Of a stretch of DNA of 64,000 nucleotides, positions 31,973-37,585 are shown piece by piece; within the stretch, counting starts at the first letter, position 1; the number at the start of each line of letters is the position of its first letter. Both the position numbers and the translations under genes were made by a program. Source of the DNA: Telopea speciosissima (taxonomy: Eukaryota; Streptophyta; Magnoliopsida; Proteales; Proteaceae); NCBI RefSeq assembly GCF_018873765.1, contig NC_057924.1:7936001-8000000 (forward strand), in the 5' to 3' direction. The notes under the pieces were generated by a model. The model searched no databases. It was not told the origin of the DNA and was given only the letters and a program-made list of their open reading frames with translations.

Positions 31973-34900
31973 ATGGAACCATGCACCGACACAACCCCAA
32001 GAGCCACAGTCGTGTTGCTCTTCTTCTCCTTCGTTGCCCTCTCTTTCTTGTTCAGCTTCAGCAGCTGCGCCGATCCAGCGGATTCAATTATCACTAATCG
32101 TGAGTTGCTTTAGAGTATTATATAAGGAGCTTGAATTATATTAATACAGGGGACTATTTCTCTGTTTCTCATTTATTTCCTTTTTTCTATCGATTCACAG
32201 CTTCAAAGGGCGATAAAGCAAGGCTTCCTTCGACATCGACTCCTCCTTCACCGCCGCTTCCGATGAACGGAATTACCCTTCCTGGTGAGTTACTTTAGAG
32301 TATTATATAAGGAGCTTGAATTAGATTAAGACAGTCAATTCTCTTCGATGTCGCTAAACAGGGGACTATTACTCTGTTTTTCACTTATTTTTTTTTTCTT
32401 CGATCGAGTCACAGCTTCAGCACCGGCTCGTTCGCCTACTCATGTTTCACCACGACCTCCGATTAACGGAAATACCATTCCTGGTGAGTTATTTTAGAGT
32501 GTCATATAAGGAGCTTGAATTAGATTAAGACAGTCAATTCACTTCGATGTCACTAAACAGGGGATTATTACTCTGTTTCTCATATATTTCTTTTTTTTTT
32601 TTTTCTTTTTCTAATTGAGTCACAGCTTCAGCACCGATTCCTGGTGAGTTACTTTAGAGTATTATATAAGGAGCTTGAATTAGATTAAGATGGGTCAATT
32701 TCTACTCTGTTTCTCAGTTATTTCTTTTTTTTCTATCGAGTCACAGCTTCAGCAGCGCCTCCTTCGCCTACTCATGTTTCACCGCTGCCTCGGATTAACG
32801 GAATTACCATTCCTGGTGAGTTACTTTAGAGTACTATACAATGAGCTTGAACTAGATTAAGATGGGTTAATTCACTTCGATGTCGACTATTACTGGATCC
32901 GACTCCTCTCCAGGGAGCTCAGCACCCAGGGGGCATCCAAGGGTGGGGCTATGCTGAACACATCTCGGCATGCCTAGGGATGTGTGCAGCACAACCCAAC
33001 GGCTGGATGCTCCATAGGCATGCTGGGCTCCTTGGCGCCGAGCTCAATTCAACTAATACTATGTTTCTCACTTATTTCCTTTTTGCCGATACAATCTAAC
33101 GGGTCCTCAAACAGTCCCTTCAGAAGAGTACCATCTTCCTACGATGGATCCATTTGATCATCTTTAGAATCGTTAAAAAGAATCTTATGTTTTTTTGTGT
33201 ATAGGACTTTTCGTCAAATGAAAATTACATCTAAAACCTTGAACTGAGATTCTCACGCCAGTTTGGAAAAGTATATGCTTTGGTGGCATACATTATTTGT
33301 TTTTGGGATTAAGAGCTTGTATAATAGGGGAGGGGGGAATTAGGGGATGGGGATACGCTCCAAGGTGGTTTGAACTTATGACCTCTTATTTGAAAGGGTG
33401 GCATGCATTATTATTGACTGTTCAATCAGGGATTCACATCTCAATCATTTGTTGTTCGTTGCCACTACGTCACCCGCGATCCATAAACTGGATCATCCTA
33501 TAAAGGAAAAATAACAAACTCACACTACAATCTACCCGACTAAGCGAAGAATATAGATGAATATTAAGAAACTTATACCATGATCACTGAATCACTAACT
33601 CATTGATTGGATGGAGAGGAACATCACATCAACCGATTAATATGGCCTTAGGACGTGAAGAAGCATTGGAGATTCTTTTCCAAGCTAACAGTGTGGGAAC
33701 CTTTACCCTTTGGGAAAAGTACACTTGAGGTGCCTTAAGTTTGCAAAAAAGATGTTTAGGATGCCTCGAGATTAAAAAATTGCGTTTGGGATGCCTCGCT
33801 GGTTAATACTACTCCAAAATGAATAAATTTCCAAAGGATGTTTACATGTCTTTCTTCGTTATTCTCAAAAATGCCCTGAGTTTTGCTGCTCAATTTCTCT
33901 AAGAGCTCTCTGTTTGCCACTCAGATCTCTCTCATAGGTGCCCATGCCTAGATAATGGCACCTGATACGAACCCTGATTTCTTACCATCTTCAAGAAGTC
34001 TCAAGCTTCTCTTTGCTTTGGAGGAAAGCTCTCATCTTGTAGTGGAAAGCCCATCAACGAACTCTTAAGAACCGGACAAAATCTTTGCTAATGGTTTCTT
34101 TCCATCCCTAGTCATTGGATCTACTGCCTGCAAATTAAAGCCCAGATAATATTAAATGCCAAGAAAAAGGGAAGAACCAAGAGTTATTACCCTATTGTAT
34201 TCTCACCTGAATCTAATCAATCTTGAGAAGCAAATCCATGGTTTTTTCCAAGACAAACTCAGTCTTGAGTTGGGAACCATCTAAGGTTGCAGACCTGCAC
34301 CGAGCTCTATAGGTTGATCTGCATTGCTGCGAAGGCACCCATGACTTGCCGTGCGAAGTCAGGCAGGTCTTGTAAGAGTTGTAAACATAACAAAGAACAA
34401 GGACAGGGACGATTGAGTCAAATCGACACAAGCTCTGATACCATGTTAAGCATGTGAAAACTCTACATTTTCATTCATGTATGATAGGGTATATATACAA
34501 GAGTGTTAAGAACATGTACAAGGACAATAATCAATACAAAATGCAAATTGTCAAATTTGATGTCTGCGCTGTACTATGTGTCGGCAGTCGGCACCGACTA
34601 TATACACTTAACATTTGGGATACCCAAATTCTGATTTACAAGGTTAAAATTGAAAATAAATCTAGTTTATAACAAAACTTGTTAATAAAGAACCCCAAAT
34701 GCCACTTTTCAAATTTAAGGTGTACCTTAAACATCCTTTTTGCAAACTCAAGACACCTCATGTGTAATTTACCCTATTTTAATTATAATTATGAATTGTA
34801 AAGATCTAAAGATGTTAATTGGCCTAGTATCAGATGTGAATCCGAAATCGATATTTAATCTTCGAAGAAATGTTTTCTACATGGACGCAGGGGCCACACC

Positions 34901-37585: not shown

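Follow-up and report, generated by a model that had tools for sequence, protein, structure and literature searches.

Can a cysteine-rich receptor kinase (CRK) gene lose its sensing domains and still encode a readable protein? The question is raised by a gene on the plus strand at positions 31973–37585 of the window, a stretch of 64,000 nt (C9:7936001–8000000) that lies inside a tandem CRK array in a genome of 823 Mb in 1287 contigs. The DUF26 matches of the array span C9:7928709 to 8216292, according to a genome-wide scan that scored 150 of 219 candidates and whose silence elsewhere is no proof of absence. The gene offers a readable case of a receptor that drops its sensing domain yet keeps an open frame. 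Paralogues are designated here by letters. C lies within the window, D to K (J apart), P, and Q are at C9 8.00–8.15 Mb, J is at C9 4.23 Mb, and M is on C3.

Gene structure and the search for DUF26

The gene was modelled as a chain of 11 exons and ten introns, all GT-AG, which has no internal stops and predicts a protein of 520 codons plus stop. The order encoded is a signal peptide, a proline-rich stretch of ~100 residues, a membrane helix, and a complete CRK kinase, with phase 1 at the joins of the signal-peptide, mini-, and membrane exons. Exon 1 (31973–32099) comprises the signal peptide fused to a short linker remnant, with the DUF26 deletion junction at ~32076/32077; signal peptide, remnant, and membrane helix were assigned by eye without a predictor. 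Four phase 1-1 mini-exons follow: a diverged linker copy of 84 nt (mini-exon 1, 32201–32284), linker copies of 69 nt each (mini-exon 2, 32415–32483, and mini-exon 4, 32747–32815), and, between the latter two, a linker copy of 18 nt (mini-exon 3, 32626–32643). Relative to mini-exons 2 and 4, mini-exon 1 is longer by 15 nt and mini-exon 3 shorter by 51 nt, both multiples of three. Beyond a long intron with inserted material (32816–35095) lie the membrane-spanning exon (35096–35242) and five kinase exons (35329–35450, 36167–36377, 36521–36758, 37033–37183, and 37259–37585) with a stop codon at 37583–37585. Within the long intron, imperfect inverted repeats at 33712–33758 and 34728–34774 (47 bp, 87%) flank a ~1-kb stretch (33712–34774) that looks like a DNA transposon.

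The kinase is recognized by Pfam (PF07714, 1.1e-47; PF00069, 8.9e-45), and its exons are 89 to 97% identical at the DNA level, 15-nt flanks included, to those of paralogue H, a gene with two DUF26 domains; the membrane exon is 77% identical. H is located at C9:8076011–8083929 and was read except for 2.7 kb between its first kinase exon and the remaining ones. These results confirm the open CRK-type kinase exons that the initial annotation had placed at 35096–37585, and the exon chain that it had proposed, a signal-peptide exon plus four phase-1 mini-exons with 520 open codons, holds.

As predicted from the exon chain, the amino-terminal region is made up of the signal peptide, the linker remnant, and four linker copies. 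The ectodomain of 99 residues includes 23 prolines, nine [AST]P pairs, and no cysteine, and it carries neither an N-glycosylation sequon nor an SP(3+) motif. A Pfam row for a plant cysteine-rich domain (PF22812, residues 97–162, 15.6 bits, cut-off 34.1) was set aside because these residues cover linkers and the membrane helix.

A search of the 520-aa protein with Pfam gave no PF01657 match at E ≤ 0.1. Similarly, when five CRK ectodomains served as tblastn queries with filters off, no DUF26 was detected on the plus strand of 25000–35100 among the best 30 rows, which consist of the half domain of paralogue C (minus strand, 25.8 kb), linker copies, and other, weak hits. Two of these weak hits on the plus strand, at 34497–34616 (E 0.031, the best of them) and 34293–34382 (E 0.87), show no DUF26 by Pfam. 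The initial annotation had stated that DUF26 is missing upstream and that a DUF26 exon spliced to 35096 would speak against its reading. In the plus strand of 25000–35100, tblastn and Pfam detected neither an upstream DUF26 domain nor an exon of this kind that could be joined to 35096.

Origin of the DUF26 deletion and of the mini-exons

Paralogue C, a disabled copy on the minus strand (18123–25778), holds half of DUF26-B and a linker with in-exon repeats (25778–25347), followed by membrane and kinase exons, and its half domain scores below the Pfam cut-off. Because C is 5′-truncated, paralogues H, I, K, P, and Q serve better as references. Exon 1 carries two DUF26 stretches in all five according to Pfam, after which come a linker such as TASAPAPSPTLVSLPPPSNGSTISG and then a donor.

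All or most of 31908–32076 aligns with 78 to 86% identity to the 5′ ends of five genes whose sequence continues into DUF26, and the signal-peptide stretch is 88 to 91% identical to three DUF26-deficient copies. The likeness of exon 1 to CRKs ends at 32076, directly after the CAD codons. The sequence past this point looks, by eye, like a linker's final ~24 nt and leaves the phase unchanged, and the deletion was therefore frame-keeping. The comparison shows that this deletion lies inside exon 1, starts directly behind the signal peptide, stops shortly before the linker ends, and took out both DUF26 domains.

The mini-exons align to the coding linkers, between DUF26-B and the membrane helix, of the DUF26-bearing CRKs H, I, K, P, and Q. 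Furthermore, the end of the DUF26-B coding sequence (FYRVT or a similar string) is recovered by tblastn directly 5′ of the acceptors that precede mini-exons 1, 2, and 4. A match between the mini-exons and the linker of paralogue C had been noted at the outset, and both DNA words quoted for it are indeed present in the mini-exons and in C (minus strand, ~25.4 kb). Paralogue C enlarged its linker within its exon.

At each of the four mini-exon junctions, the left side corresponds to intron 1 of H and the right side to the end of exon 1 of H. The left and right matches are 30/37 and 19/22 for mini-exon 1, 35/40 and 34/39 for mini-exon 2, 26/33 and 27/33 for mini-exon 3, and 21/25 and 37/40 for mini-exon 4. 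When the comparisons were swapped (n = 32), merely 4 to 17 bases aligned. Inspection by eye puts the limits of the duplicated unit at CCC^TTTCTAT (exon 1) and CCTTTTT^GCC (intron 1), and its junction sets an intronic T-run ahead of TTTCTATCGAGTCACAG, by which coding ACA-GCT is turned into CACAG|CT. The donor GTGAGT and the T-rich tract derive from intron 1, and the CACAG acceptor sits in former coding sequence. Because each unit supplies a linker, a donor, and, beside a T-rich tract, a CACAG as latent acceptor, a linker copy can turn into a phase-1 mini-exon. The phase fits, as the codon is started by the final base of the exon before: a C in the case of mini-exon 1 and, for mini-exons 2–4, a G that restores GCT.

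Units that join the exon-1 end to the intron-1 start stand in tandem at 32100–32893, where the donor plus intron start occurs five times. A repeat search recovered five copies of a 64-nt family in this array, although Tandem Repeats Finder reported no repeats in 31900–35100. Comparison with H shows that the modelled mini-exons stem from tandem duplication across the exon-1/intron-1 border, in units that take in the last DUF26-B codons and the linker as well as the beginning of intron 1. The source sequence of the new introns, on which a case for intron gain by tandem duplication turns, was identified. Thus, the proposal that a CRK lost both DUF26 domains while its linker expanded into exon-encoded modules is supported by comparison with H, I, K, P, and Q, and we regard the structure and origin deduced for the gene as well supported and very probably correct.

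Intron 1 of H contains a duplicate linker unit (C9:8076956–8077043), of phase 1-1 and open by eye, that could be an extra mini-exon. With this copy beside its DUF26 domains, H likely represents an intermediate. The ends of the duplicate in H differ, by eye, from those in the 11-exon gene, and therefore duplication probably occurred more than once. New introns and mini-exons formed by duplication over an exon/intron border can be studied here with their source sequences and a likely intermediate still nearby.

A related event is described for a potato RdRp gene, in which a duplication across an exon/intron border made a new intron whose splicing was shown (PMC4974935). Both cases draw on existing as well as cryptic splice signals to build an intron by a border-crossing duplication. 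In potato, however, the inherited signal was the acceptor, with the donor cryptic in the exon, whereas here the donor was inherited and the acceptor was cryptic in former coding sequence. Moreover, the present case is a repeated array whose introns are predicted.

A matching mini-exon array is found in paralogue D (C9:8037566–8038633), where the stretch corresponding to the region of DUF26 loss is replaced by other sequence. In a kinase tree of chosen paralogues only, with no other RLK family, the kinase of D (C9:8046710–8049321) clusters with those of E and F (support 82), and the 11-exon gene groups with J (support 96). The differing affinities of array and kinase in D suggest that sequence may have been exchanged between copies.

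Working kinase or decaying copy

In the best explanation, to which we give an even chance, a CRK paralogue was turned by deletion and tandem duplication into a DUF26-less, linker-stalked membrane kinase. If the transcript is spliced as modelled, the product would be a membrane-anchored RD kinase on a short, cysteine-free stalk that is probably disordered and possibly O-glycosylated. The putative protein, being without DUF26, would fail to perceive DUF26 ligands, and it would most likely act through kinase–kinase contacts, as a partner or an interfering form of neighbouring CRKs. Whether this is a working gene appears about evenly balanced. The sequence points either to a DUF26-less membrane kinase or to a copy early in decay, and we lean slightly toward the former. 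The full proposal, a working DUF26-less CRK whose ectodomain is all repeats of its own juxtamembrane linker and which has four introns absent from an ordinary CRK, seems to us less likely than not.

Almost as likely as a working kinase is a recently disabled CRK copy, that is, a pseudogene whose frame is open by recency or luck and whose deletion and repeats are debris of unequal crossing-over; we place this reading somewhat short of even. All six of the other DUF26-deficient copies read have at least one lesion, several of them judged by eye, and the gene regions of F, G, and J were read in part. The acceptor before the first kinase exon is missing in C. Paralogue D, in which the start codon is soon followed by a stop and foreign sequence, has a stop in the kinase. 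In E, the signal peptide is fused out of frame to DUF26-B, the membrane exon contains a stop, and the linker donor is lost. The linker donor is also lost in F, which is 5′ truncated in the stretch read and lacks a stop codon where one normally stands. Paralogue G is frameshifted, with its first kinase exon interrupted, and J, with no exon-1 match in 2.6 kb upstream, has an in-frame stop right before a membrane-exon remnant. Despite these lesions, the kinase exons are open in E, F, and J. The end points of DUF26 loss in the other copies differ from those described above.

By contrast, the 11 exons are free of stops, frameshifts, and lost splice dinucleotides, and their length changes keep the frame, which speaks against decay. 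The one defect is a weakened donor at the membrane exon, GTTGAA, with a U1 pairing of −2.9 kcal/mol versus −4.2 to −6.5 for eight paralogues, whose donors at this exon are GTAGAA, GTAAAA, or GTATAA. Retention of the intron at 35243 adds ENG and then a stop, yielding a kinase-less membrane peptide. Note that the donor at 36377 is also weak (−2.6) and is identical in nine of 11 paralogues, and therefore the family tolerates a weak donor. By a rough calculation with an assumed frameshift rate, a copy would have a ~13% chance of staying lesion-free if neutral divergence after the deletion were 0.01, and ~2% if it were 0.02.

Selection on the kinase half was assessed as the initial annotation had suggested. 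The alignment, tree, and omega tests cover the five kinase exons, with the membrane exon left out for all genes and M and G left out altogether. Pairwise NG86 estimates over 343 to 347 codons gave dN/dS values of 0.22 to 0.49 against nine paralogues. With a custom two-ratio codon model applied to five branches, the branch omega is 0.31 (background 0.48); a value of 1 was rejected (LRT 8.13, p = 0.004), and the difference from background was not significant (LRT 1.22). An omega below 1 speaks against decay, but the result is nondiscriminating since the disabled C has the same value of 0.31, and the constraint on the kinase, although real, may predate the deletion. DUF26-bearing H gave 0.28, and the value for D (0.58) was not below 1 (p = 0.18). 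The kinase of J (C9:4230486–4234000), which lies 3.7 Mb away and pairs with the 11-exon gene in the tree, gave 0.26.

The mini-exons, compared with D, show no sign of selective constraint and diverge at least as fast as introns, which also favours decay. An initial comparison found differences at 25/138 sites in mini-exons 2 and 4 versus 49/366 in three introns (p = 0.20); it set aside exon 1, the introns at either end, and mini-exons 1 and 3, part of which was restored later. Adding the last intron gave 72/596 sites (p = 0.07 versus mini-exons 2 and 4), and all four mini-exons together differ at 71/240 sites, with mini-exons 1 and 3 aligning poorly. Over the 46 codons of mini-exons 2 and 4, dN is 0.24 and dS is 0.13. 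Unconstrained modules of this kind would be as expected for a free stalk or for decay.

The same lack of constraint is consistent with a variant of the best explanation, unlikely in our estimate, in which the kinase is expressed with its mini-exons mostly skipped or randomly spliced and the signal peptide nearly abuts the membrane exon. Every mini-exon is 1-1, and therefore the frame survives the skipping of any of them, in every combination; a direct join of exon 1 to the membrane exon also reads open, and mini-exon 3 is just 18 nt long. However, the donors of the four mini-exons pair well with U1 (−9.2 kcal/mol each), and their acceptors retain T-rich tracts.

Proline-rich extensin-like receptor kinases (PERKs) possess a proline-rich ectodomain, then a membrane helix, then a kinase, and their ectodomains carry extensin-like SP(3–5) repeats. 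A proline-rich ectodomain ahead of a membrane helix and kinase is common to PERKs and the gene under study, and the initial annotation had called its architecture PERK-like. This description does not extend beyond appearance because the kinase is of CRK type, as judged through its identity to DUF26-bearing H rather than by direct comparison with PERK kinases, and because an SPPP motif is absent. Membership among the PERKs was rejected on the grounds of the CRK kinase, the short ectodomain of ~100 aa, and the lack, in its 99 residues, of any SP followed by at least two further prolines. The initial annotation had suggested that such a receptor could sense the wall or anchor in it. True convergence on PERKs in such a role, which the many prolines, the [AST]P pairs, and the missing cysteines might evoke, is very improbable given the kinase type, the lack of SP(3+) motifs and sequons, and the unconstrained modules.

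Relation to CRK-derived kinases and other features of the window

With CRKs, as represented by H, the gene has in common the signal peptide, linker, membrane exon, and five kinase exons; it differs by the loss of both DUF26 domains and by a linker split into four mini-exons. Its kinase thus falls with the CRK clade, but it lacks the DUF26 domain of which a CRK has at least one. According to a published survey, the usual CRK gene layout has seven exons (PMC6368629). The present gene departs from that layout with its single DUF26 exon, having 11 exons, among which one membrane and five kinase exons are retained. The same survey describes CRCK kinases as CRK-derived proteins that have lost the ectodomain and membrane region (PMC6368629). 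CRCKs are the closest published kin of the gene, which likewise derives from a CRK by ectodomain loss but retains an open, in-frame signal-peptide exon and membrane exon.

Among the literature matches listed, none was found to report a CRK that keeps signal peptide and membrane helix yet lacks DUF26; searches for CRKs in Proteaceae and for truncated RLK ectodomains, as well as one for DUF26 domain loss, returned no papers. The survey treated genes of incomplete domain structure as pseudogenes and excluded them (PMC6368629); surveys that follow this practice would miss genes such as the one described here. If expressed, the gene would allow CRK kinase action to be tested without DUF26.

A search against Rfam gave no matches across the 64,000-nt window. 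A Copia-type gag-pol frame of 674 aa occupies 43826–45850 and matches gag, Pol_BBD, and pre-integrase domains, with an integrase core match slightly below the cut-off. Two more plus-strand exons, at 7878–8753 and 13682–14455, have two DUF26 matches each and are followed by kinase-like exons.
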